Assembly (NCBI RefSeq): GCF_000407445.1
Contig: NZ_ASWB01000001.1
Location: 558,001 to 622,000 of the forward strand
Reading direction: 5' to 3'
Length of the DNA: 64,000 nucleotides
Source: Enterococcus moraviensis ATCC BAA-383
GTDB lineage: Bacteria; Bacillota; Bacilli; Lactobacillales; Enterococcaceae
Positions within the stretch are counted from its first letter, which is position 1. Every line of letters begins with the position of its first letter. Under the pieces are notes generated by a model, which saw only the letters and a program-made list of their open reading frames with translations, did not search any database and had not been told where the DNA came from. The position numbers and the translations under genes are program-made. Positions 14,576 to 55,545 of this stretch are shown one piece after another.

Positions 14576-15130
14576 TTAATGAAATACCTTGCCATTCCTA
14601 CGATAATTAATGTCTTCTCGTCCTTCACGAAAATTGATCAAACGAGCAACTACATATAAATAATCAGATAGTCGATTTAAAAAGATCAGTACTTCTATAT
14701 TGATTTCTTCCGTTTCTTGAACTCGGACGACACTTCTTTCTGCTCTTCTAGCAACAGTTCGTGCCAAATGAAGTGAACTTGCAATTGGACAGCCGCCTGG
14801 CAGTATAAACTCAGTAAGAGCTGGAGGAATATCTGCATATTTATCAATTCGCTGTTCCAACCACTCAGTTGATTCCTGAGACGTTCGATAGCCTTTAGAA
14901 CAATTTGGTGTTGCTAAATCTGTCCCACAATCAAAAAGAATTTGTTGGATTTCTTCCAATTCCTTTTTGATTTCACGATAAAGTTGCATTTGGCTGATGA
15001 CGCATCCAAGCAGTGAATTTAATTCATCGATTGTACCATATGCTTCCACTCGCTCTGAAGCTTTACTTCTTTTTTCACCACCGATGATACTTGTTTGCCC
15101 TTTATCACCTGTTTTTGTATAAATGTTCAT
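14576..15130 (-). CDS. PduO-type cob(I)alamin adenosyltransferase
   Basis: 184 residues with the PduO N-domain signatures: MNIYTKTGDKGQTSIIGGEKRSK (ATP-binding start), VEAYGTIDELNSLLGC, EFILPGGCPIASSLHLARTVARRAER, and FLNRLSDYLYVVARL. The enzyme transfers the adenosyl group of ATP to cob(I)alamin or cobinamide, making the coenzyme form that EutBC needs and that the eut riboswitch senses. It is last in the corrinoid operon, 5 bases after eutP, and no other adenosyltransferase is seen in the eut cluster, so it may do the job of EutT. Confidence 0.92.
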   Translation of the reverse strand: MNIYTKTGDKGQTSIIGGEKRSKASERVEAYGTIDELNSLLGCVISQMQLYREIKKELEEIQQILFDCGTDLATPNCSKGYRTSQESTEWLEQRIDKYADIPPALTEFILPGGCPIASSLHLARTVARRAERSVVRVQETEEINIEVLIFLNRLSDYLYVVARLINFREGREDINYRRNGKVFH

Positions 15131-15135
15131 CTGCT

Positions 15136-15582
15136 TTACGCCCCTTCTTCATACAAATAGTCTAACAATGTCTCGATTCCCTGATTTTCAACTGCTGAAA
15201 TCATAAAACATTTGGTTGCGCCAGCTAATGCTAGCTGTTTTTTGGTTCGTTCAATATCTTCTGTTGTTGCTAAATCGATTTTCGTAATAATACCAATACA
15301 TGGTTTAGCAAAAGCTGCTGCAAATAGCGGTGAAAAAGTTTGTTTTTTTTCTACTGCGCTGGCCATTAGGACAATCAGTTTTGCATCAACCGCCGTTGTC
15401 AAAAGTGCACTGTAATAATTACGGTGCTGAATGAATTCTCCAGGTGTATCAATGATCTGATCATGAAATTCAATTGCTTGCGTTTTATTATAAGATAGCT
15501 CTTCTCCTTTTAATCGCTGTGACAGAGTGGTTTTCCCACATCCGACAGAGCCGATAAAAATAGCTTTTTTCAGTTTCTTCAT
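15136..15582 (-). CDS. eutP: EutP/PduV-type microcompartment GTPase-like protein
   Basis: 148 residues: P-loop GSVGCGKTT (about 11-19), switch region IIDTPGEFIQHRNYYSALLTTA, and the base-recognition motif TKID. This small P-loop family is found only with eut/pdu microcompartments; some members are reported to have acetate kinase or GTPase activity. It overlaps cobC by 4 bases (ATGA). Its place inside the B12 operon rather than the eut cluster is notable and ties the two systems together. Confidence 0.9.
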   Translation of the reverse strand: MKKLKKAIFIGSVGCGKTTLSQRLKGEELSYNKTQAIEFHDQIIDTPGEFIQHRNYYSALLTTAVDAKLIVLMASAVEKKQTFSPLFAAAFAKPCIGIITKIDLATTEDIERTKKQLALAGATKCFMISAVENQGIETLLDYLYEEGA

Positions 15583-16163
15583 TGATTTCTCCCCTCCAAT
15601 TGATACCTATTTTCTTTAAAACGATAGCATGTGTAACAACTTTGCTGATAGTCGATCGACCAAAAATTGCTGTACACAGAAGTAAAATATTGATCGATTA
15701 CCCGTAAAACACCTAGATGGGCGACGATTAAAATAGGTTGATCCTGATTATGAATCAAATTCCCTTCAATTTGCTTAATTCCGGTGATTACCCGTTGTTT
15801 AAAACAAGCAAATTCCTCCGCTTTTGGTGGCGTCTTTAAAAAGGGTTCATCCAGCCAAGCGGACCATTCTTTTGGGTAGTTATAGTTAATTTGATCTGCT
15901 GAAAGACCTTCCCACAAACCAAAAGATTTTTCATTAAACTCGGGTAATATTTTGTATTCTTCATTTGGTTTAATAATTGCAGCTGTTTCCTGTGCTCTTT
16001 TGAGTCCACTTGTGTAGAGTTGGGCAAATTGAATCGGGCATAGCTTTTCAGCTAGTACGCTACTTTGCTGTCTCCCAGTTTGATTAAGAGAAACATCTAA
16101 CGAACCATAAAATTTCCGCTCCTTATTCAGCTCAGTTTCACCATGTCGAACTAGATAAATCAT
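15579..16163 (-). CDS. cobC: Alpha-ribazole phosphatase (histidine phosphatase family)
   Basis: 194 residues starting MIYLVRHGETELN, the RHGE catalytic motif of histidine phosphatases, with the second histidine in ILIVAHLGVLRVI. In this operon it most likely removes the phosphate from adenosylcobalamin 5'-phosphate or alpha-ribazole phosphate, completing the lower-ligand assembly. The specific assignment relies on its neighbours cobS and cobU. There are 13 bases between it and cobS upstream. Confidence 0.87.
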   Translation of the reverse strand: MIYLVRHGETELNKERKFYGSLDVSLNQTGRQQSSVLAEKLCPIQFAQLYTSGLKRAQETAAIIKPNEEYKILPEFNEKSFGLWEGLSADQINYNYPKEWSAWLDEPFLKTPPKAEEFACFKQRVITGIKQIEGNLIHNQDQPILIVAHLGVLRVIDQYFTSVYSNFWSIDYQQSCYTCYRFKENRYQLEGRNQ

Positions 16164-16176
16164 CTCTTCACCCCAA

Positions 16177-16926
16177 CTATCCTCTAAAAAGGATCACAAT
16201 AAACAACATTTGACTAATACAATGAAAAGCGCCTAATGTATCCCCGTTCATTCCATCGATTTTCCGATAAATAAGTGAACGATATCCAAAACTGGCAAAA
16301 ACGACAGCGAGATACGCGATGATCCCTTTTAGTCCTAGCAAGCCATAAATCATCATCACAGCTAGCCCTTGACAAATGAGTATTCTCCATGAAGCTACAC
16401 CTAAAAATAAGCGACCTAACCCATTCGTATGTCCAGCATAACGCATATTTTGGAATAGTAGCGCAATACCCGATTTCCCAACGATTTGTAGTACTACCAT
16501 AACTCGAAATAAATAGGCTTGTTCCGTTTTATCCAAGTGAATGATCACTGGTACAAACATAAGTAAATAATAGAAAATCAATGCCAAAACACCATTGGTT
16601 CCCACTCGACTATCTTTCATGATCTCCAGCATTCGTTCTTTATTTCTTGATGAAAAAAGACCGTCACACATGTCTGCTAAGCCATCCATATGAAAAGCGC
16701 CTGTCAAAAATACATCAAAAATCAATGCACCAAGCCAACCAAGAATCAGAGAATCCAATAACCAGGAAAGGAGTAAAAAGGCTAGGCCGTCTACTAGACC
16801 GATAAATAAGCCAAAAACAGAAAACCAAACAATTCCCTTTTTGAAACGAAGTTCCGCTTCATTTATCTCGACTGAAAAAGGCAAACGGGTAAAAAACTGA
16901 CAATATAAAATCATTGTTTTGATCAT
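16177..16926 (-). CDS. cobS: Adenosylcobinamide-GDP ribazoletransferase (cobalamin synthase)
   Basis: 249 residues from the ATG at 16926, which overlaps the cobU stop as ATGA; an in-frame start at 16950 would add 8 residues. Typical CobS features: YCQFFTRLPF at the N-terminus, GAFHMDGLADMCDGLFSSRNKERMLEIMKDSRVGTNG (the metal/substrate region, split here for description), and several TM segments. The membrane enzyme joins adenosylcobinamide-GDP with alpha-ribazole or its phosphate. Confidence 0.93.
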   Translation of the reverse strand: MIKTMILYCQFFTRLPFSVEINEAELRFKKGIVWFSVFGLFIGLVDGLAFLLLSWLLDSLILGWLGALIFDVFLTGAFHMDGLADMCDGLFSSRNKERMLEIMKDSRVGTNGVLALIFYYLLMFVPVIIHLDKTEQAYLFRVMVVLQIVGKSGIALLFQNMRYAGHTNGLGRLFLGVASWRILICQGLAVMMIYGLLGLKGIIAYLAVVFASFGYRSLIYRKIDGMNGDTLGAFHCISQMLFIVILFRG

Positions 16927-17516
16927 TTGATTTTTTGAGGAATGCCGCATACAACGAAATAGACACTCTCTGCTTCCTTTGCTAAATATTGATTGACTTT
17001 TCCCAATAAATCTTGAAACCAGCGGCCCATAGCAGAAACCGGCACAACACCAGAGCCCACTTCATTCGTTACAAGAATCATAGTTGTATTCGTTTCCAAA
17101 AGTACGGCACGAATTTTTTCCCATTCCTGAAACATACGCACCTCTATTTTATAGCGTTCTTGCGGTGAATATTCATCAAACAGTTGCTCCACTTGATCTA
17201 TGTCTTTCCCCATTTCTTCAGTCATGATATGGAAAAATAAGTTAGTATTCAAAACGGTTACACAGTCTAATAAATAAGCATCGTAATTATTTTTTGTTGA
17301 CCGTATCCAATCATCGATCGCTAAAAAACGTTCTTCTGTTTGCCATGATGCTGGTCTAGTCTTTTGATGTCGCTGGATTCTAGCGTCCATTTCGTCATCT
17401 TGATAGTTCATCACACTGGTAGCAAGATAACAAACTACTGCTGAATCCTCCAATAGGCTTTCAGCAAAAGTTGATTTGCCACTTTTGGCCCCGCCAGTCA
17501 CTAGAGTATAACTCAT
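16923..17516 (-). CDS. cobU: Adenosylcobinamide kinase / guanylyltransferase
   Basis: 197 residues with the CobU signatures: P-loop VTGGAKSGKSTFAE (about 5-18), RIQRHQKTRPASWQTEE (the catalytic histidine/GMP region), DCVTVLNTN, and LVTNEVGSGVVP. It phosphorylates adenosylcobinamide and adds GMP. Overlaps with cblS (upstream) and cobS (downstream) are ATGA-type, showing tight coupling. Confidence 0.93.
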   Translation of the reverse strand: MSYTLVTGGAKSGKSTFAESLLEDSAVVCYLATSVMNYQDDEMDARIQRHQKTRPASWQTEERFLAIDDWIRSTKNNYDAYLLDCVTVLNTNLFFHIMTEEMGKDIDQVEQLFDEYSPQERYKIEVRMFQEWEKIRAVLLETNTTMILVTNEVGSGVVPVSAMGRWFQDLLGKVNQYLAKEAESVYFVVCGIPQKIK

Positions 17517-18262
17517 GTCAATTGCTCCTTTGTAAAATAGCCGATCCTTTTGACCGCTATCTTTTTATTCGTTAATCGAAGGACACGCCCTTTTTCTACT
17601 GCAACGAGTAAAACAGTAGCAGGCCCTGCTGAACGAGTATCCTCATACTCCGTTTTATCAAAAATAATATGTAATCCACTTGATCGTGCTAGTTGTTCGG
17701 CTTCGTAAGCAACCCCTTTTGATCCCACTGGAAGTAGTTCTAAAACATCGGTTTTCTGTTGTATTTCAGCCAAATCTTGATACGTAAAAATAGCATCTCT
17801 ATGTTCTAAAACGTCCGCGCCTAATAATGGTTCCCCAACTTGATATAACGTACTTTCAGCCAACGTAGTACCATAGCGTAGTTGATTTTTTTGAACGGTT
17901 CCGACAACAGTCACACCGATTGACGTCATTTTTGTTTCCATATTTTCTTCCGTACTGCCATTGATCATGACATCTGTTAAACCGGCTTTTATTAGCTCAT
18001 TTCGGATACCTGTTATCATACGTGTACCTGTTGGTTCCATTTCACCACCGATTGTATCGACCACTATTATAGGTATTCCACCAATCGCTAAAAGCTCCAT
18101 CAATGCGACTCTCAAGCAAAAAGCGCTAGTAATTTCAGGAGCTGCTAAAACACTGTCTGCTTCTTTCAAACCGATTGCAGCACTACTGTCACATGCAACA
18201 ATAATGCCTGTGTCTTCTGTTAAAAACGTAATAGACACATCTCGAATAGTGTCATTTATCAT
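17513..18262 (-). CDS. cblS: Alpha-ribazole kinase CblS (AIR-synthase/PurM-like fold)
   Basis: 249 residues resembling PurM/ThiL-type ATP-binding proteins: ITFLTEDTGIIVACDSSAAIG at the N-terminus, then FCLRVALMELLAIGGIPIIVVDTIGG and NGSTEENMETKMTSIGVTVVGT. In Listeria innocua and Geobacillus, CblS phosphorylates alpha-ribazole brought in by CblT, replacing CobT. The direct overlap with a CblT-like gene (ATGA at 18259-18262) and with cobU makes the same role very likely here; the family match is from recall of that established pathway. Confidence 0.85.
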   Translation of the reverse strand: MINDTIRDVSITFLTEDTGIIVACDSSAAIGLKEADSVLAAPEITSAFCLRVALMELLAIGGIPIIVVDTIGGEMEPTGTRMITGIRNELIKAGLTDVMINGSTEENMETKMTSIGVTVVGTVQKNQLRYGTTLAESTLYQVGEPLLGADVLEHRDAIFTYQDLAEIQQKTDVLELLPVGSKGVAYEAEQLARSSGLHIIFDKTEYEDTRSAGPATVLLVAVEKGRVLRLTNKKIAVKRIGYFTKEQLT

Positions 18263-18765
18263 TTTTCTGCCTGCTTTCTTTTTTGCAAATCACTCGAAGT
18301 TGTTTCAAAAAAATAAAGGACAACCTCTGCTAAAACTAAATTCAATAACGCTCCAATGCTAAGTGGGATAATTAAGGTAAAAACGAGTGGTCCTAATAAG
18401 GGATATAACACCAATAATGCCGACGGTGTATTGATTAAATAAGCAACTACTATTGACAACCAGCGATTCATTCCCCATTTTTTTGACGTTTTCGCTCGAA
18501 CGATCCCATAACATACCATGCAAATCCCCATGAGCACAGCCGTTACAAGATGAACTGGTAAGCTTAGTGGAAAACCAGAAAGTACTGCTGTAGCTAAGTG
18601 CCCAAAACTTCCTAGCAAAAAACCAAAACCTGGACCTAAAAATACCGTCCCAACAAACGCCGATAAAGAGTCTAAAGCAATTGAGCCAAATAATTTAATC
18701 ATTGATCCAATTACACATAATGCTATAAACATCGCTGCTAAGGTCAATCGCTTTGTCATCTTCAT
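18259..18765 (-). CDS. cblT: Alpha-ribazole transporter CblT (ECF S-component-like)
   Basis: 168 residues, five or six TM segments: LAAMFIALCVIGSMIKLFG (about 8-26), SAFVGTVFLGPGFGFLLGSFGHL, SLPVHLVTAVLMGICMVCYG, WLSIVVAYLINTPSALLVLYPLLGP and LIIPLSIGALLNLVLAEVVLYF. The fold is that of ECF substrate-binding S components. With cblS it forms the known alpha-ribazole salvage pair. It may share the energising module encoded at 19871-22401. Confidence 0.83.
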   Translation of the reverse strand: MKMTKRLTLAAMFIALCVIGSMIKLFGSIALDSLSAFVGTVFLGPGFGFLLGSFGHLATAVLSGFPLSLPVHLVTAVLMGICMVCYGIVRAKTSKKWGMNRWLSIVVAYLINTPSALLVLYPLLGPLVFTLIIPLSIGALLNLVLAEVVLYFFETTSSDLQKRKQAEK

Positions 18766-18778
18766 CCGCTTCTTTCTT

Positions 18779-19162
18779 CTATAGTTTATTTAATGTCCAC
18801 GTTACTGTATCGCCATCTTTAAGGAAATATTCGACCGCACCAACATCTGGCTGTTTCCCATTAACATCATATAACCAATATTTACTCGCTGCTGCATCTT
18901 GCATGTGACCGTCGATCCCACTGATAAAATCTTTGTCCATCTCCACTTTATAGTTGACTTCCATCACGGTTTGCAATGACTCGTCTTTTTTGACCTTTAG
19001 TTCCTTTTTATCGAATTCTTTATCATCTTCTTTTAAGATGATCGTTACGTTAAGATTGTCAGCATCGGCCTTTTTAGTTTCTTTCTTCTCTGCTTTTTGC
19101 CCACATGCTCCTAGTAAAAAGATAACTGCCATAAATAGTACGACTCTTACAAATTTTTTCAT
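18779..19162 (-). CDS. DUF4430 lipoprotein, putative corrinoid-binding
   Basis: 127 residues: signal peptide MKKFVRVVLFMAVIFLLGAC with lipobox LGAC, so the mature protein is lipid-anchored at Cys20. A charged linker is followed by a domain with ELKVKKDESLQTVMEVN, FISGIDGHMQDAAASKYWLYDVNGKQP and KDGDTVTWTL, the pattern of DUF4430, which is related to the transcobalamin C-terminal domain. Its place between an ECF S component and CblT suggests a surface corrinoid-capture protein. The domain is fairly clear; corrinoid binding is inference. Confidence 0.8.
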   Translation of the reverse strand: MKKFVRVVLFMAVIFLLGACGQKAEKKETKKADADNLNVTIILKEDDKEFDKKELKVKKDESLQTVMEVNYKVEMDKDFISGIDGHMQDAAASKYWLYDVNGKQPDVGAVEYFLKDGDTVTWTLNKL

Positions 19163-19184
19163 TTTATTTCCACCTTTGTCTTTT

Positions 19185-19874
19185 TTATTTTATATCGTAT
19201 TTGATTAAAATACGTTGAAGCCTTGTCTGAATTGCCCGCAGTAATAAGCACGAGAAAAATGCATTTGCAAAGCAATATGAAATAGTATACGGTAATGCGG
19301 TCACAAGTAACGCCACGTACCTTGTCCATGAAAAATATCGGTCGATTGAGAGTACCGTCCAAACATCCATAAAAAATGAAAAGAAGATCCCAGCCAAAAT
19401 GCCGTAAAGGACCAAAAACCAATAGTTTTTGCTTAATACCCTTCGAATCCAAGGCAGCCCTGCAATCAAACCAATCAGCCCCCATGAAAACATCTGAAAT
19501 GGCGTCCACGGTCCTTGCCCGAATAACATATTAGATGTAACTGCTGATAATGAGCCAACGAGAAACCCAATCTCAGCGCCCATACAAATACCAGAAATTA
19601 TAATGATTGCCGTCATCGGGGTAATTGCTGGAATCATGTAAAACAGAAAGCGACCTAAAACAGCTGTTGTGGTTAAAATCGCAATCAATACTAATTCTTT
19701 AATGTTCAGCTTTTTTCTTTCATACCTGTAATATATGGGGATACAGGCGACTATCACCATTAGCATCGAAATAACTTGATACTGACCAACTTCAAATAAC
19801 AGGATCGCTAATCCAAGTATGAACAGTGTAGCCGCAACCACCAAAGTAGACCGTCTCATGAAGAAACGCTTCAT
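19185..19874 (-). CDS. ECF transporter S component, probably for cobalamin/cobinamide
   Basis: 229 residues from the ATG at 19874, which overlaps the ATPase stop (ATGA); an in-frame start at 19901 is possible. Hydrophobic segments are at about 8-26, 30-45, 58-80, 84-110, 115-135 and 145-220. The segment GAEIGFLVGSLSAVTSNMLFG followed by GPWTPFQMFSWGLIG is typical of ECF S components of the CbrT-like group. The neighbouring B12 genes support corrinoid as the substrate. Inference for the substrate, firm for the class. Confidence 0.8.
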   Translation of the reverse strand: MKRFFMRRSTLVVAATLFILGLAILLFEVGQYQVISMLMVIVACIPIYYRYERKKLNIKELVLIAILTTTAVLGRFLFYMIPAITPMTAIIIISGICMGAEIGFLVGSLSAVTSNMLFGQGPWTPFQMFSWGLIGLIAGLPWIRRVLSKNYWFLVLYGILAGIFFSFFMDVWTVLSIDRYFSWTRYVALLVTALPYTISYCFANAFFSCLLLRAIQTRLQRILIKYDIK

Positions 19875-21541
19875 ATAGGATTCACGCCCTTTTTTCGACA
19901 AGCTTCGATCACTTGTTCCGTTGTCACAAGTTGAAAAAAAGTATCTCTGGAAATCCTACTAGCAGCTGTAGTATAAAAAGTATGATTACTAAAAAACAGA
20001 GTTGGTTCAGCTATTGTTAAAAGATTATTTTGGAAAAACAAACCACATCGATCTGATAGTTCTGCAGCAAAATCCAAATCATGGGTTACCACTAAAATGG
20101 TTTTTCCATGCTCTGCTAACTTCTTTAATCGTTCAATCATTTGTTTTTTTCCGTAATTATCAATTCCTTTGGTCGGTTCATCAAGTAGTAAAACCTTAGG
20201 GTCAGTCAATAAAAGTTTCCCTAACGCTGCCCTTTGACACTCTCCACCGCTTAAATCGAGAGGATGCTGATTCAGGACCTCCTTAATATCCAACCAAGAA
20301 GTAATCGTGTCGATACGCTCCGTTTGTTCTTTAACATTCAAGCCTTTACCAGCCAAATAAGCTCGATAGTCCTCTAAAATCGACTCCTTACTAAACATCA
20401 TTTGTGGTTCTTGCGGTAGATAGCCAACTACGTGCTGATTTTTTTTAGCAGGCTGATCAAAAACCCGTAGTTTTCCACGATAACATTGCTGAATCCCAGC
20501 AATCACTTTTAAAAGTGTTGTTTTTCCAGTTCCATTGCCACCAACTAAAGAAAAAATTTCTCCTTCTTCAACAGCTAAATCCACTCCAGCTAAAATGTCT
20601 TTGCCATTCTTTTCATAGCGAAACCAACCATTTTTCAGTTGAATACCGAGACTTTTTCTTTTATGCGGCGTACCTTGCTCAACCATGCTAGCAGGAAACT
20701 GATTTGGAAAATAACGTGCTAAAAGTCGTTTCCCTTCGACCACTGTGATTGGACACATACCTTGAAAGCCACCTTCGTGATAGATTCGCACAGCACTAGG
20801 TAAACTAAGAATAAACCGTTTAAGATCAACGTTTTGTGTTTTGATTTTATTGGAAAGTTGCACAGGAGCATCCGCCAAAATCAAACCCCCTTCCTCTAAC
20901 ACAACTACTTGATCAGCAAATGCAAAAACAGCTTCTAGACTGTGTTCTGCTAATAGAATAGTAATACCCATTTCTCGATTTAAACGGACTAAAATGTCCA
21001 CAAAATTCTGAGAGGCAATCGGATCCAATTGTGTCATTGGCTCATCTAACAGTAAAACCTCTGGTTGCATCACTAACACGGCAGCCAGATTTAGTAATTG
21101 CTTTTGACCACCAGATAGATCACTTGTGTTTTGTTCCATCAACTCTTGAATTCCTAGAAAATGAACCATTTCAGCGATTCTACTTTTGATTTCAAACGCT
21201 GGAACACCCATATTTTCTAATCCGAAAGCTAGTTCGTGCCAAACATTATCAGTTACAATCTGATTTTCAGGATTCTGCATGACATAACCGATTTTACTTG
21301 TAGAAAAAAACTCAGGCAATGCAGCCATCTTTTCATTAGCAAAAATCACTTCACCCGATTGTGTACCAGCCGGTGTTATTTGTGGTTTCAGCATTTTCAA
21401 TAATGTTGATTTACCGCTACCAGATGCGCCGCAAATCAACAGAAATGCACCTTTCTCAATGGATAACGAAATATCGTCCAGAACTGGCTTATGACCGCCA
21501 GCATATTGAAAAGTTAAATTCTTGATTTCAAGATAGCCCAA
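19871..21541 (-). CDS. ECF transporter ATPase, two fused ABC domains
   Basis: 556 residues from a TTG start at 21541 with AAGGAGGGG 5 bases upstream; a longer frame to 21625 lies inside the T-component gene and is rejected. Domain 1 (about 1-260) has Walker A GASGSGKST, signature LSGGQ and DEPMTQLD. Domain 2 (about 310-540) has GGNGTGKTT, signature LSGGE and DEPTKGID. Normally EcfA1 and EcfA2 are separate genes; the fused form is usual for dedicated (group I-like) modules. It energises the S component next door and possibly CblT. Confidence 0.92.
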   Translation of the reverse strand: MGYLEIKNLTFQYAGGHKPVLDDISLSIEKGAFLLICGASGSGKSTLLKMLKPQITPAGTQSGEVIFANEKMAALPEFFSTSKIGYVMQNPENQIVTDNVWHELAFGLENMGVPAFEIKSRIAEMVHFLGIQELMEQNTSDLSGGQKQLLNLAAVLVMQPEVLLLDEPMTQLDPIASQNFVDILVRLNREMGITILLAEHSLEAVFAFADQVVVLEEGGLILADAPVQLSNKIKTQNVDLKRFILSLPSAVRIYHEGGFQGMCPITVVEGKRLLARYFPNQFPASMVEQGTPHKRKSLGIQLKNGWFRYEKNGKDILAGVDLAVEEGEIFSLVGGNGTGKTTLLKVIAGIQQCYRGKLRVFDQPAKKNQHVVGYLPQEPQMMFSKESILEDYRAYLAGKGLNVKEQTERIDTITSWLDIKEVLNQHPLDLSGGECQRAALGKLLLTDPKVLLLDEPTKGIDNYGKKQMIERLKKLAEHGKTILVVTHDLDFAAELSDRCGLFFQNNLLTIAEPTLFFSNHTFYTTAASRISRDTFFQLVTTEQVIEACRKKGVNPI

Positions 21542-22401
21542 ATGATCCCCTCCTTGATTCGTTTCACTATAGGGATGAATGCCACTAGGATAATGAGCAC
21601 ATAATTCCATCCATGATTTTGCCATAATAGCGTAAATGATTCAGTATAGGGATAGAAATTGTATTGATAATATCCCTTAGTCAAGGCTATGAAAAATGCC
21701 CCACTACAACCAATCAACAAAAAGAGCGCTGCTGTATCCTGAATACGCCAAGGATACGAAATTCGACTGCTTCTTTTCGTCACGCCATATCCTCTTGCCT
21801 TCATAGAATCCGCTGTATCCATTGCATTTTCTAACGCCCAAGAAAACAGATTCCCAAATAAATCTAAGCCATAGCTAGCTTTCTCCTTAAAGGTTCTCTG
21901 TTGTGTACGCTGAAGTGTTTTTTGAACTTGATTTAACTCCCAATAATATTGTTGAAACAATGGCATAAAACGAAAAATCATGGTTAAAATCAACGTGAGT
22001 TTGGGAAACCGTTTGCCAAAAAGATAAAAGAACTGTTCTGAGTCGACTGAAGCTTGAAATGCCTGAAACAGATAAATAACGGAAGCAATCATTAACCCTG
22101 AAAAAAAGCCATAGATCAATGCTTCTTGCGTGATTGGTTTGTTCAAAAAGAAAAAAAGGATCGTTCCCCCACGATGGACAAAGAATGGGTTGGTTAGCGT
22201 AAGTAACAACACAAGCACCATAGGATAAAGCAACCCGCTTTTTTTATTATTTGCCATTTGCAATAACCGTAAACTTACACTTGCTAGAAAACAAATACTA
22301 ATGACAATTGGATTTGTGGTACTCATGACAATCAACAACATCAACACATAGTAACTAGACGAAACGAATGGATGACTTGATTTAAAAAAATAGCGATTCA
22401 C
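21514..22401 (-). CDS. ECF transporter T component
   Basis: 295 residues with several TM segments and the T-component coupling region: KASYGLDLFGNLFSWALENAMDTADSMKARGYG, in which ADSMKARGYG is the ARG-type motif that contacts the ATPases (described in parts). First gene of the corrinoid operon; its ATG follows AAAGGAG. Its last 28 bases overlap the ATPase gene and hold the latter's binding site. Confidence 0.9.
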   Translation of the reverse strand: MNRYFFKSSHPFVSSSYYVLMLLIVMSTTNPIVISICFLASVSLRLLQMANNKKSGLLYPMVLVLLLTLTNPFFVHRGGTILFFFLNKPITQEALIYGFFSGLMIASVIYLFQAFQASVDSEQFFYLFGKRFPKLTLILTMIFRFMPLFQQYYWELNQVQKTLQRTQQRTFKEKASYGLDLFGNLFSWALENAMDTADSMKARGYGVTKRSSRISYPWRIQDTAALFLLIGCSGAFFIALTKGYYQYNFYPYTESFTLLWQNHGWNYVLIILVAFIPIVKRIKEGIIWAILKSRI

Positions 22402-22456
22402 TCCAAGTCTCCTTTCTTAACACGTTTTATAGAAAAATAGATGAAAGCAACAAAAA

Positions 22457-22487
22457 AACAGCCGTCACTTTTTAAAAGTGTGCTGTT
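22457..22487 (-). terminator. Attenuator terminator before ecfT
   Basis: Minus-strand AACAGC pairs with GCTGTT, with inner CACTTTT / AAAAGTG pairs, followed directly by a run of seven T (22452-22458). It lies 56 bases upstream of the ecfT start, so it must be read through for expression. Confidence 0.85.
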
Positions 22488-22632
22488 TGGATCGACGATT
22501 ATAACAGAACGTTATTATGCCAGATCTAGCGAACAGCTCTCTTTACAAAAAATGTAAATATAAAAAGTGAGCGATAAAACCGCAAGCCTGACATAAAATC
22601 AGTCTTTCCGTCACTTCTCATTCTATTCATTG

Positions 22633-22684
22633 CTATATCTTCATTGACATAATCATGCTCAGTTTAACGCAACATCATTGTTGC
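22633..22684 (-). promoter_or_regulatory. Tandem ANTAR-like hairpins in the corrinoid leader
   Basis: Hairpin 1 (22669-22684): GCAAC, loop AATGAT, GTTGC. Hairpin 2 (22633-22652): TTATGTC, loop AATGAA, GATATAG. Both have six-base loops with A at position 1 and G at position 4, the rule for EutV-type ANTAR targets. Hairpin 1 begins only about 6 bases from the predicted start of transcription. Unlike the eutG and eutA elements, the terminator does not overlap hairpin 2, so function is uncertain. Confidence 0.5.
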
Positions 22685-22696
22685 ATATCCACCTTT

Positions 22697-22725
22697 ATTA
22701 TATAAATTTATGTATCTAAAGTCAA
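22697..22725 (-). promoter_or_regulatory. Promoter of the corrinoid operon
   Basis: TTGACT (22720-22725) and TATAAT (22697-22702) with 17-bp spacing on the minus strand; predicted start near 22690. Confidence 0.8.
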
Positions 22726-32990: not shown

Positions 32991-34397
32991 TTATTTTTTA
33001 AAATAGAAAAATGTTTTGGTCCCTTGCTCACTAGAGGTTATTTCTAATTTGCCACGTAGTTTTTCTTTGACATAACTTGTCACGATTTGTAGACCTAAAT
33101 TATTTTGACCTTTTTTGTTTTGCTGATAACCGATACCATTGTCTTCGATAGAGATGTTGACATATTGATTTTTTTCATAAACTCTCACCTGGATATGTCC
33201 CTGTTTACGATCAATAAAAGCATGGTCATAACAATTTTGAATCAATTCATTTACTACTAAAGCAATCGTAACAACTGTATCGCTTTCTAAAATCAATTGG
33301 GTTTCAATTTCTGAATCGATGGTAATATGATAAAGGTTTTCGTAGCAACGGTGCATATTCTCGACGACTGAGTCTAAGACAGATTTCAAAGAGATATCAT
33401 CTTCCAGTTGTTTGGAAAGAAGCTCATGCGTTCTTGCAATAGCCATGATTCGATACACACTTTCTGTCAAAACTTTTTTTGCTTCATCCGTTTGACAGCG
33501 TCTTGCTTGAATGCTTAAAATTGACACAACGCTTTGCAGATTATTTTTCACGCGATGGTGGATTTCTTTGATGACAACGGCTTTGTCACTGATTTCTGCT
33601 TCTTTTTTGCGTACTTCAGTAACATCATGAATAATCACGATGACTGTTCCTTCAGCTTCATCAAAAATGTATTTCATTTCAAAATATAAATTGCCAAATT
33701 TGATTTCTTTTTCCATTGAACTGGCGACATCATTTCTAGATCTTAAATAATTCAATTGCTCAAACGTTGACATGTCTAAGGATAAATTATCATAATGCAT
33801 ACCAAGAATATCTTCTAAATACCCAAATTCGTGATAATAGGATTCTGCGGCACGATTCATTTGGACTAAATACCCTTTTCGATTAAAAATCAAGATTCCT
33901 TCATCTATATTATCTGTTACGAATTCTTTTGAGGTAATCGGAATTGGAATATTCTGGTAGTTTTTTGCTTCACTTTGAGCAACTAAAAAGTTTTTCATTT
34001 TTTCATCGACTGAATCTTCCACAATCACAACACCTATATTTTTTCTTTGATTCCGAATTGGGTAAACCCGTTGGCGTACCATTACATTTTCTTGAGAACG
34101 AGCAAGTAAGCCAACTGTGTTTAATGACGTTTCAAAGGTGCGATAAACAGCTGCTTCATTTTTTCGCTGGGCCTTTTCGCCAACAATGTTTTTGGAGTAC
34201 AGCGATTGTTTCGACAATGGCTCTCTTTGGAAAATCACCACAGCATCGCCAGTCAGTTCATTGATAACATCAATAAATACATCGTTATCTGGGTATAAAT
34301 TTCTCGTCAAAATATGATTTGCTTGTGTGATCAATTCGTTGATATCTTCTTTAGACAGCTCGGTATATTCTTTGCATAGCTTTTTGATTTGTTGCAT
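32991..34397 (-). CDS. eutW: Ethanolamine sensor histidine kinase EutW
   Basis: About 468 residues; the start is uncertain (ATG 34397 or 34409, TTG 34421; none has a good binding site). N-terminal sensor domain (about 1-150, MQQIKKLCKEYTELSKEDIN), a PAS domain (about 165-270, DNIDEGILIFNRKGYLVQMN), then a HisKA_2-type dimerisation/phosphoacceptor IKEIHHRVKNNLQSVVSIL and an ATPase domain (VVNELIQNCYDHA, IEDNGIGYQ, NLGLQIV). No TM, so it senses cytoplasmic ethanolamine. It phosphorylates EutV and is encoded just after it. Confidence 0.92.
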   Translation of the reverse strand: MQQIKKLCKEYTELSKEDINELITQANHILTRNLYPDNDVFIDVINELTGDAVVIFQREPLSKQSLYSKNIVGEKAQRKNEAAVYRTFETSLNTVGLLARSQENVMVRQRVYPIRNQRKNIGVVIVEDSVDEKMKNFLVAQSEAKNYQNIPIPITSKEFVTDNIDEGILIFNRKGYLVQMNRAAESYYHEFGYLEDILGMHYDNLSLDMSTFEQLNYLRSRNDVASSMEKEIKFGNLYFEMKYIFDEAEGTVIVIIHDVTEVRKKEAEISDKAVVIKEIHHRVKNNLQSVVSILSIQARRCQTDEAKKVLTESVYRIMAIARTHELLSKQLEDDISLKSVLDSVVENMHRCYENLYHITIDSEIETQLILESDTVVTIALVVNELIQNCYDHAFIDRKQGHIQVRVYEKNQYVNISIEDNGIGYQQNKKGQNNLGLQIVTSYVKEKLRGKLEITSSEQGTKTFFYFKK

Positions 34398-34401
34398 TGA
34401 A

Positions 34402-34974
34402 TTAATCATCAGAAGCCACAAACATTTCGGCGATCTCAGCGATTGGACAACGTTTATTCATACTTAACTCTCTTAATAATTGATATGCTTGATCTTCAGA
34501 TAAATTTTGTTCTACCATAATGATTCCTTTGGCTTTTTCGATCAATTTTCGATCTGACAATTTTTTTGTTAACTTCTCTAGCGAAACTTCATATTCTCTT
34601 GCTTTCGTTCCAGTTGCAATCGCAACTTCAACCATTGGTGTCAGTGATTTTTCCATAATTGGTTTAATCAAGTAGCCGCTAATGCCATACTTTTTAGCTT
34701 TTTCTATGTTCTCTTTATCGCTATAAGCAGTTAAAAGAATAATCGCTTTCGCATATTTCTCTGCTAAAATTTTCTTACTAGCTTTTAGTCCGTCTAAAAG
34801 CGGCATACTGATATCCATGATCACAAGGTCGGGGTGATGGGTTTTACAAAGTTCGATGGCTTCGATCCCGTCGGCAGCTTCACCTACTACATTGTAGTTT
34901 TCAGCTTCCAGCATCCCCCGGATATCCATTCTTGTAATAGGTTCATCGTCTACAATGACAATTCTTCCGTTCAT
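34402..34974 (-). CDS. eutV: ANTAR response regulator EutV
   Basis: 190 residues. Receiver domain: acidic pair DDE at 9-11, phospho-acceptor D54 in VIMDISMP, then LLTAY and the lysine in SGYLIKP. Short coiled linker (about 125-140), then an ANTAR RNA-binding domain (KLIEKAKGIIMVEQNLSEDQAYQLLRELSMNKRCPIAEIA, given in part). It binds paired A1/G4 hairpins in nascent RNA and prevents termination. Such target elements are visible before eutG and eutA, and possibly before the corrinoid operon. Confidence 0.95.
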   Translation of the reverse strand: MNGRIVIVDDEPITRMDIRGMLEAENYNVVGEAADGIEAIELCKTHHPDLVIMDISMPLLDGLKASKKILAEKYAKAIILLTAYSDKENIEKAKKYGISGYLIKPIMEKSLTPMVEVAIATGTKAREYEVSLEKLTKKLSDRKLIEKAKGIIMVEQNLSEDQAYQLLRELSMNKRCPIAEIAEMFVASDD

Positions 34975-36551: not shown

Positions 36552-36635
36552 CTTCAAAAAAAGCCGCAAAAAAGACAACGATCATCTTTTCAGCAGCTTC
36601 TTTGCTTGCTTAAAAAACACTACTTTGTGTTTTTT
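36552..36635 (-). promoter_or_regulatory. EutV (ANTAR) antitermination element before eutG
   Basis: Hairpin 1 (36612-36635): AAAAAACAC, loop AAAGTA, GTGTTTTTT. Hairpin 2 (36593-36609): GC-A-AGC, loop AAAGAA, GCT-GC. Both loops show A1 and G4. The terminator (36585-36599 with 36561-36575, AAGCTGCTGAAAAGA with TCTTTTTTGCGGCTT) is followed by TTTTTTT and takes the 3' arm of hairpin 2. The arrangement matches the known EutV targets. It lies downstream of the riboswitch on the same transcript. Confidence 0.9.
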
Positions 36636-36799
36636 GTATTTACTTTTATAGATTATTCATTTTTAACCACAAAAAATAGGCCTGATTCACCGTTGTACTT
36701 CATCGTACATACACCACATTTTCGTGCTTACTAATCAAGATTGTTCTCTCTTAAAAAGTAATCGTTATGTGTTCTATTGTTTTGCCTCGAAACAATAGT

Positions 36800-36915
36800 A
36801 CGGAATGTATTGATTTAGAAAGACCTGACTTATAGCAGTAATGCTCTTCACAGTGGCGGGACCGTATTGGAATCGAACCAAACTTCCATCTAAATAAATA
36901 CCTATTCAATTTCTA
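36800..36915 (-). ncRNA. Adenosylcobalamin riboswitch (EutX-like leader)
   Basis: Minus strand: AGATGGAAG, TTGGTTCGATTCCAATAC, the core GGTCCCGCCACTGTGA (36848-36863) and a B12-box-like AAGTCAGGTCTTTCT near 36818-36832. A strong hairpin CTATTGTTT / AAACAATAG follows (about 36772-36800). In Enterococcus faecalis and Listeria the same arrangement yields a regulatory RNA (EutX/Rli55) whose ANTAR hairpins sequester EutV unless B12 causes early termination. The same role here is inferred from the layout. Confidence 0.9.
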
Positions 36916-37051: not shown

Positions 37052-37984
37052 ATGAAAACAGAACGATTATTAGCAATCATCATGATTTTACTTGAAAAAA
37101 AACAAGTCAGTGCTTCCAAATTGGCTGAAATGTTAGAAGTGTCCATGCGAACAATTTATAGAGATATCAACTCGCTAAGTGAAGCTGGAATTCCCGTAAC
37201 TTCTTTTCCTGGTGTCAATGGTGGAATCCAAATTATGGATAACTATAAAATAGATAAACAATTTTTTACGTCATCTGATATTACCTCTTTGTTGATTGCG
37301 CTAGAAAGCTTATCTAATAACGTATCCCCTATTCAAACAAGCCAAACGTTTGAGAAACTAAAAACGTTAGTACCCAGTCAATTTCTAGATGAAATCGAAT
37401 TTAAAACGAATCAAATTGTAATTGATTTAACACCATGGACCAGCAACCATACGTTACAACCTTTTTTAGAGGTAGTAAAAGCTGGAATGGATCAACAACG
37501 TGTACTTTCTTTTGATTATGAGGACAATCAAGGAAGAAAAACTCAAAGAACAGTGGAACCTTATCGTCTCGTTCTAAAGGAAATCAGCTGGTATTTACAA
37601 GCATATTGCTTAGAAAAAGCTGATTTTAGAACGTTTAAAATTTCTAGGATGAGTGAATTAGCATTAGTAGCGTCACATTTTGATCTTCGAGAATTTAAAA
37701 CAACAGCGCTAGGAAAAGAGCCATTCTACGGTAAAGAATTCACAACAATCACATTGAAAGTAACCCACAAAATCAAGGAACAGTTGTGTGATAAATTTGG
37801 GCAACTACCATTTTCCCCTACGGATGATCCTGAAAAGGTGATCGTTGACTTTCCTTTTATGGAAGATGACTTTGGCTATCATCTTCTTTTAGGTTTTGGC
37901 TGTCAATGCGAGTGTATACAGCCAAAACACGTGAGAACTGAATTAAAACGACGTCTTACAGATATGTTGGCGATGTATCAATAA
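37052..37984 (+). CDS. YafY-type HTH/WYL-domain transcription regulator
   Basis: 310 residues: N-terminal HTH_11 (MKTERLLAIIMILLEKKQVSASKLAEMLEVSMRTIYRDINSL, in part) and a C-terminal WYL domain (about 140-225: VLSFDYEDNQGRKTQRTVEPYRLVLKEISWYLQAYC, with RTFKISRMSEL). WYL proteins sense small molecules or nucleic acids. AAGAAGG lies 7 bases before the ATG. It stands alone between the eut locus (divergent) and dnaJ (convergent); its target is unknown. Confidence 0.88.
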   Translation: MKTERLLAIIMILLEKKQVSASKLAEMLEVSMRTIYRDINSLSEAGIPVTSFPGVNGGIQIMDNYKIDKQFFTSSDITSLLIALESLSNNVSPIQTSQTFEKLKTLVPSQFLDEIEFKTNQIVIDLTPWTSNHTLQPFLEVVKAGMDQQRVLSFDYEDNQGRKTQRTVEPYRLVLKEISWYLQAYCLEKADFRTFKISRMSELALVASHFDLREFKTTALGKEPFYGKEFTTITLKVTHKIKEQLCDKFGQLPFSPTDDPEKVIVDFPFMEDDFGYHLLLGFGCQCECIQPKHVRTELKRRLTDMLAMYQ

Positions 37985-55319: not shown

Positions 55320-55545
55320 TTCCACACAAAAAGAACGCACTGAAAACTCAGTCCGCTTTGACGTGAGTCTTCGTAATCGTTGAGTTTTGGCACTATACAA
55401 CGTAAAAAGCCTCTGCTTTTAGCTACCTTATGAAAAGCCTTCGTTCGACAATTCCTGTTCTACCCATTGGCGTCTCTCGACATTTTTGGGCAGTAGCCTG
55501 TGTTTGTATAGGAGCCTCACCTAACAAGAAGAATTACACGTTTAG
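55320..55545 (-). ncRNA. M-box (ykoK) Mg2+ riboswitch with terminator
   Basis: Minus strand: GTTAGGTGAGGCTCCTATAC, then CAGGCTACTGCCCAAAAATG, GACGCCAATGGGTAGAACAG, CATAAGGTAGCTAAAAGC and GTATAGTGCCAAAACTCAACG, which are the conserved M-box segments in order. AAAACTCA can pair with TGAGTTTT (about 55388 with 55345) followed by GTGCGTTCTTTTT, the likely Mg2+-induced terminator. High Mg2+ would switch mgtA off. Confidence 0.95.

Follow-up and report, generated by a model that had tools for sequence, protein, structure and literature searches.

The leader that precedes a corrinoid uptake and salvage operon in the window (the whole 64 kb stretch of DNA analysed here) most likely represents a variant form of antitermination by the ANTAR protein EutV that is new, and not an aptamer. 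It combines two hairpins of the ANTAR-target type (P1 and P2), a folded middle segment, an antiterminator (AT) and an intrinsic terminator (T). The P2 strand, i.e., the hairpin together with its 3' flank, shows complementarity to the antiterminator 5' strand, and P2 can thus be linked to the terminator through a further helix, the anti-antiterminator (AAT). These parts probably form a relay attenuator, which would place the operon under the control of EutV. A more specific form of this proposal is a protein-gated RNA relay, in which an ANTAR protein controls a terminator that it never touches by gating the invasion of P2 during a folded delay segment of ~100 nt; the chances of this form being correct seem to us evenly balanced.

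Under the proposed mechanism, the nascent leader would fold P1 and P2 first when active EutV is lacking. About 100 nt later the antiterminator 5' strand would pair with the P2 flank that had stayed unpaired, opening the hairpin and giving AAT; because AAT occupies the antiterminator strand, T would form and transcription would stop. With ethanolamine present, phosphorylated EutV would hold P1 and P2, leaving the antiterminator strand free to form AT with the T 5' arm and allowing readthrough into the operon. The folded middle would bridge the gap and buy time for EutV to bind.

Layout of the leader and its genomic setting

All features of the leader lie on the minus strand, from the promoter (22725-22697) to the ribosome-binding site of the EcfT-like gene near 22401 (Table 1). 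The promoter is where the original prediction had placed it; it is the best of three promoter-like sites in the leader and is conserved in relatives, although the count by itself is not significant (3 versus 2.2 in shuffles). The two A1/G4 hexaloop hairpins claimed for the 5' end are likewise present, and the branched middle is recovered in the fold as a three-way arm followed by a hairpin. The antiterminator comprises three helices, 22537-22530/22489-22482 (with one mismatch), 22522-22519/22496-22493 and 22515-22511/22505-22501, the first of which includes the pairing of GCTGTT (22537-22532) with AACAGC; this pairing, anticipated in the original prediction, is now part of the proposed path. 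The whole leader folds with a z-score of -2.52. A simple terminator scan of the leader does not list T and lists only a weaker stem at 22583-22571. The Rfam covariance-model search that had been suggested for this leader gave no match at the gathering score, and the eight matches at E up to 10 are all far below it.

Table 1. Positions of the leader elements, the operon and the presumed regulators in the window
Feature	Position	Strand	Remark
Promoter TTGACT-17-TATAAT	22697..22725	-	11/12 positions; kept in relatives
P1, ANTAR hairpin 1, loop AATGAT at 22679-22674	22667..22686	-	scan and two-sided covariation
P2, ANTAR hairpin 2, loop AATGAA at 22645-22640	22633..22652	-	nearly invariant in 7/8 leaders
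AAT (anti-antiterminator) helix, 5' strand; includes nearly all of P2	22632..22653	-	
P3, branched (three-way) arm of middle spacer	22560..22621	-	folding; low sequence conservation
P4, middle-spacer hairpin	22542..22558	-	folding
AAT helix, 3' strand, within antiterminator 5' strand	22514..22530	-	
AT, antiterminator	22482..22537	-	
T, intrinsic terminator; T tract at 22458-22452	22457..22487	-	
Ribosome-binding site AAAGGAGA of first gene	22408..22415	-	read from sequence
EcfT-like transmembrane protein (PF02361), operon gene 1	21514..22401	-	
Remaining presumed operon	14576..21625	-	extent suggested by close spacing
EutV, response regulator with ANTAR domain, presumed trans-acting protein	34402..34974	-	
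Histidine kinase beside EutV, presumed EutW	32991..34421	-	name suggested by position

Besides the EcfT-like protein, the genes behind the leader code for a twin ABC ATPase, ECF S components, a DUF4430 lipoprotein, CobU, CobS, a CobC-like phosphatase, EutP and a PduO-type adenosyltransferase; their spacing suggests that they form a single operon. The latter two (14576-15582, minus strand) stand at the end of the corrinoid cluster, outside the eut cluster. The leader itself is placed behind eutQ (PF06249); the other eut gene names were assigned by eye. The EutV of the window matches PDB 6wsh/6ww6, which we take to be E. faecalis EutV, at 1.6e-65.

Further regulatory elements are found elsewhere in the window. 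An AdoCbl riboswitch (Rfam RF01482, 103 bits; 36767-36911, minus strand) is followed by a dual-hexaloop site (36595-36635, minus strand) with P2 within a terminator, ahead of a presumed eutG, an arrangement resembling that of EutX. Beside this riboswitch lies a divergent HTH regulator, of the WYL type by eye (37052-37984, plus strand), which is kept next to ecfT in relatives without eut. An M-box magnesium riboswitch (RF00380, 160 bits) is located at 55365-55535 on the minus strand.

Distribution of the leader in related genomes

We searched a genus sample of 22 genomes and a family sample of 105 genomes. The EcfT-like protein was found in 17 of the 22 genus genomes and, at E 1e-30, in 23 of the 105 family genomes, which include the former 17. 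Seven of these 17 genus loci have P1, P2, the middle, AT and T, nine have short leaders without them, and the remaining one (G012) starts 150 nt upstream of the gene. The seven leaders were located via the downstream ecfT gene, independently of the leader sequence. Two RNA models, P1P2 and AT-T, were built from them and then run on the 105 family genomes. They recovered an eighth leader, L034 of G012, which had been part of neither model, on the same strand with both (P1P2 E 4.4e-9; AT-T E 1.8e-8). L034 lies downstream of eutQ at the end of a separate G012 contig and presumably belongs to the ecfT gene of that genome. The contig ends just past this leader (3' end of L034) and just ahead of ecfT (5' end of L013) are rich in inverted repeats, and perhaps an insertion element lies between leader and operon in G012. 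The leader is thus present in eight genomes: L004 (the window), L005, L006, L008, L009, L011, L014 and L034.

Outside the genus, among the 105 family genomes, there was no match below 7e-4 (P1P2) or 1.4e-3 (AT-T), with search filters strict enough that weak matches may be lost. The next P1P2 match (7.0e-4, L035 in G060) was rejected as it reads as coding sequence, and an AT-T match at 1.45e-3 (L046 in G056) as the terminator of another gene. The AT-T match at 5.3e-5 in G005 is the short leader of ecfT, which keeps a similar terminator. At the six ecfT loci of other genera a coding gene stands directly upstream, and no such leader is found there. In one genome of another genus (G083), 38 kb around ecfT and an ANTAR gene contain three dual-hairpin sites, all in the ANTAR-gene half and none in the ecfT half. 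One scan of genome contigs returned three loci, all duplicates of genomes already in the set. The short leaders upstream of ecfT (L007, L010, L012 and L015-L020) share the promoter, have a start that resembles TGTTGTTTAA and come from genomes without an ANTAR protein; some of them (L010, L007) retain a similar terminator but lack P1, P2 and the AT domain.

An ANTAR protein (PF03861) is encoded by 6 of the 22 genus genomes, and all six have the leader; among the 16 genomes without such a protein, two (G010 and G007) have it. With descent ignored, chance would produce this association with a probability of 3.8e-4 (among 22 genomes) or 2.3e-3 (among 17). Both leader and ANTAR-protein presence are clustered on the tree, in which resolution is poor, with 12 of the 18 inner branches open; the leader label needs at least two changes, and few independent events therefore stand behind the association. 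In G010 the stretch from dnaJ to ecfT that would house the eut locus (L049 14047-15828) has shrunk to ~1.8 kb, and an eutQ remnant of 98 residues lies beside an intact leader and T, with the ANTAR protein absent. In G007, also lacking an ANTAR protein, P2 carries two mismatches, AAT is shortened and an outer T pair is lost.

P1 and P2 as probable ANTAR-target hairpins

When the 64 kb were scanned on both strands for hexaloop hairpins in pairs, with the loop AANG, four places were returned, one of them the corrinoid-operon leader. Two others (36635-36595 and 32986-32944) stand ahead of eut genes and have P2 inside a terminator; the fourth is weak and GU-rich. Both hexaloops have A1 and G4 in all eight leaders, and the P1-P2 stems are paired in 93.6% of cells. 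In P1, four of the nine pairs show two-sided changes across the eight leaders; the number of two-sided cells was reached by none of 500 shuffles, and the number of pairs by 50 of 500. The alignment of related leaders that had been called for yields two-sided covariation in P1 and none in AAT, AT or T.

The distance from hexaloop to hexaloop is 28 nt in seven leaders and 29 in L034, whereas that from the end of P2 to the T arm varies from 137 to 176 nt across the eight; the constancy of the former despite the variation of the latter is as a dimeric protein would demand. P2 overlaps the terminator 5' arm in none of the leaders, and the 146 nt between them in the window bear out the original estimate of about 150 nt. 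The P1-P2 linkers measure 12-15 nt in seven leaders and 18 nt in L011, in which P1 is counted only up to a mismatch. At the E. faecalis ANTAR sites linkers are 5-12 nt long, and one of 14 nt impaired eutP induction (PMC3369931); the stems compared are longer here than in the E. faecalis sites. By analogy with those sites, the long linker would count against a relay through EutV.

Complementary strands as a probable connection of P2 with the terminator

In the window, AAT comprises 16 pairs (22653-22632 with 22530-22514), and bases 1-5 of the loop form a bulge; L005 has 14 pairs and the other leaders 16-18. In all eight leaders, no downstream segment pairs better with the P2 strand than the antiterminator strand. 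When the AAT duplex energy was compared with those of 21,210 background windows, it was equalled by 4 (L034), 17 (L008), 20 (L006), 20 (L009), 61 (L004), 340 (L011), 340 (L014) and 454 (L005) of them. Simple shuffles (n=1000) matched the duplex 0 to 3 times in L004, L006, L008, L009 and L034, 26 times in both L011 and L014, and 15 times in L005. Across the alignment, AAT cells are paired in 93.1% versus 31-45% when the strands are slid, AT cells in 92.6% versus at most 48%, and T cells in 95.0% versus at most 58%; MAFFT shifts the inner AT hairpin of L034 by one column, by which a few AT cells are lost. The nested, mutually exclusive AAT, AT and T helices are therefore present as base-pairing potential in all eight leaders. 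In the original prediction, action of EutV at a distance was one of the options; it gains support from this complementarity and the AAT link, which that prediction had not seen.

As P2 and AAT, AAT and AT, and AT and T share strands in turn, the number of exclusions is odd, and holding P2 should prevent T. No pair with a two-sided change is found in AAT, AT or T in the eight leaders, and shuffles do equally well for all three (for AAT and AT, 500 of 500 with the 3' letters shuffled). Few such changes are possible because each AAT/AT strand has two partners, which excuses their absence but is no evidence for the helices. Among the antiterminator-strand columns that are paired in AAT and unpaired in AT, five of eight are invariant; the two columns paired in neither are both variable.

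P1 and P2 could also be a mere EutV-binding site or a sponge in the manner of EutX/Rli55, with T constitutive or otherwise controlled and the complementarity of P2 to the antiterminator without a role. EutX/Rli55 has dual hairpins without an overlapping terminator (PMC5821096), and both the lack of two-sided changes in AAT and the unresponsiveness of L014 to P2 locking in the predictions below would suit such a role. However, it leaves unexplained the conserved complementarity, the invariant columns that are paired in AAT and unpaired in AT, the AT-T domain, which is found at one and the same place in eight of eight leaders, and the recovery of the held-out L034. We therefore consider it unlikely.

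A second alternative replaces the protein with a ribosome: stalled on a short frame in the P2 strand, it would block AAT and favour AT, as in Listeria Rli53. The frame ATG ATT ATG TCA ATG AAG ATA TAG runs through P2 (22629-22657, minus strand); its core, ATG TCA ATG AAG ATA TAG, is kept in seven of the eight leaders and is altered yet open in L005, and there are known cases in which a tiny ORF is overlapped by an anti-antiterminator/antiterminator pair (PMC8079631). Yet no conserved Shine-Dalgarno sequence precedes the frame in the eight leaders by eye, and ribosome-mediated attenuation fails to account for P1 and its covariation, the A1/G4 loops, their fixed spacing and the tie to the ANTAR protein; we hold it to be very improbable.

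Predicted folding and switching

Returning to the relay through EutV, its nested exclusions are seen in the predicted folds. In the free full-length ensemble, T, the terminator originally predicted at 22457-22487, has a probability of 1.00 in the window (L004), 0.01 in L005, 0.96 in L006, 0.48 in L008, 1.00 in L009, 0.98 in L011, 0.00 in L014 and 0.99 in L034. The corresponding values for AAT are 0.89 (L004), 0.82 (L006), 0.80 (L009), 0.89 (L034), 0.33 (L008), 0.03 (L011), 0.00 (L014) and 0.07 (L005); of the six leaders from genomes with an ANTAR protein, two hardly populate AAT. L005 has lost one outer T pair, and its P2 has two mismatches. A reading of its loss of T probability as decay was dropped since L014, from a genome with an ANTAR protein, also gives 0.00.

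For a locking test, the RNA was ended just past the AT 3' strand, P1 and P2 were locked, and the pairing of the T 5' arm with the antiterminator strand was read. Locking raised this pairing from 0.18 to 0.79 in L004, 0.01 to 0.99 in L006, 0.35 to 0.66 in L008, 0.01 to 1.00 in L009, 0.30 to 0.99 in L011 and 0.00 to 0.59 in L034, and had no effect in L014 (0.01 before and after; a genome with the ANTAR protein) or in L005. The AT helix as named rises less in L006 and L009, in which another register of the same strands is used. With AAT forced, the pairing was 0.00 in eight of eight leaders.

Folding by length in L004, L006 and L034 predicts that P2 is dominant at first and is replaced by AAT once the antiterminator strand has been transcribed. 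For the window, at lengths of 221-229 nt, the equilibrium returns to P2 and AT even without EutV, and at full length T still prevails over AT in all three leaders with P2 locked. Because T wins at full length and P2 with AT is favoured without EutV at 221-229 nt, the switch must be kinetic; according to these models, antitermination here would have to work out of equilibrium. Kinetic control is a general trait of attenuators.

The middle segment

With the eight leaders cut by the same landmarks, mean identity is 80% for P1-P2, 80% for AT, 83% for T and 39% for the middle, in which it falls to a minimum of 21%, with lengths of 84-123 nt and differing shapes. The middle of the window folds with a z-score of -2.56 and is equalled by 4 of 200 dinucleotide shuffles; the z-scores of the other seven leaders are -0.48 (L005), -4.48, -2.55, -4.11, -2.64, -1.56 and -3.79, with 8 nt of the next segment included in three leaders. 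That a folded shape is kept while the sequence is not points to a spacer that would shorten the gap and cost time. Judging from the sequences, the middle is most likely a structured spacer, with no sign of an aptamer.

The original prediction had raised the option of an aptamer of an unrecognised class, for a corrinoid or alpha-ribazole, which would control T. The structure of the middle (z -1.6 to -4.5 in seven of eight leaders, -0.5 in L005) and the corrinoid genes behind the leader speak for it; the low identity, variable length and differing folds just described, together with the lack of an Rfam match, speak against it, and we regard an aptamer as very improbable.

Within the middle arm, the stem 22583-22571 is terminator-like and is followed by TTTTT (22560-22583, minus strand). 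EutV could conceivably act on this nearer, weak terminator in the ordinary ANTAR manner, with T as an independent second stop. The stem ends in TCACTTTTTA, and in several relatives CTTTTTATA follows the P3 arm. It does not overlap P2, however, and is missing from L014 and L034, and the conserved AAT and AT strands would go unexplained; action of EutV at this stem thus appears very improbable, as does a stalled ribosome.

Significance and comparison with known systems

In the published model of ANTAR antitermination, P2 competes directly with the terminator, and their overlap was used as a screen criterion (PMC3369931); another screen sought terminators only within 40 nt (PMC8164766). Screens that require a terminator overlapping or just after P2 would miss leaders such as this one, and ANTAR regulons may thus exceed current lists. 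Searches of the open-access literature (including PMC8934654, PMC7496416 and PMC3369931) gave no ANTAR site acting via an anti-antiterminator and none before a corrinoid operon, although the supplementary tables of PMC3369931 may list the present one. If the relay of the EutV signal through two extra folds is true, terminators far away can be coupled to the ANTAR motif, and the leader would tie ethanolamine use to cofactor supply, i.e., corrinoid uptake, CobU, CobS, EutP and the adenosyltransferase. A positive loop via EutX would then be possible, with AdoCbl freeing EutV, and EutV raising corrinoid uptake and adenosylation.

The closest known relatives are the EutV sites in the eut locus of E. 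faecalis (Ramesh et al. 2012, PMC3369931), which share the two A1/G4 hexaloop hairpins, the EutV/EutW pair in the genome and an intrinsic terminator in the leader, with EutV expected to favour readthrough. In those sites P2 overlaps the terminator stem, whereas here it ends 137-176 nt before the terminator arm and would act, if at all, through AAT and AT. They also have a shorter linker than the corrinoid-operon leader, in which the regulated genes are those of corrinoid uptake and salvage. The loop is AATG here, as opposed to AAAG in the two canonical leaders of the window.

EutX/Rli55 likewise has an EutV site without terminator overlap, but it is a trans-acting sponge after a cobalamin aptamer; the present leader has no aptamer match and carries AT and T in cis. 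The attenuation of the pyr operon by PyrR is similar in that three folds exclude one another in a nested manner and the anti-antiterminator is a long-range one. Termination follows there from the stabilisation of the anti-antiterminator by PyrR (PMC4347634), whereas the presumed protein site here is P2, a fourth element that excludes AAT; its stabilisation by the protein would have a sign opposite to that of PyrR. Finally, the ribosome-mediated attenuators of the Rli53 type share the arrangement of anti-antiterminator and antiterminator over a short reading frame, from which the present leader differs in having ANTAR hairpins and no conserved ribosome site.
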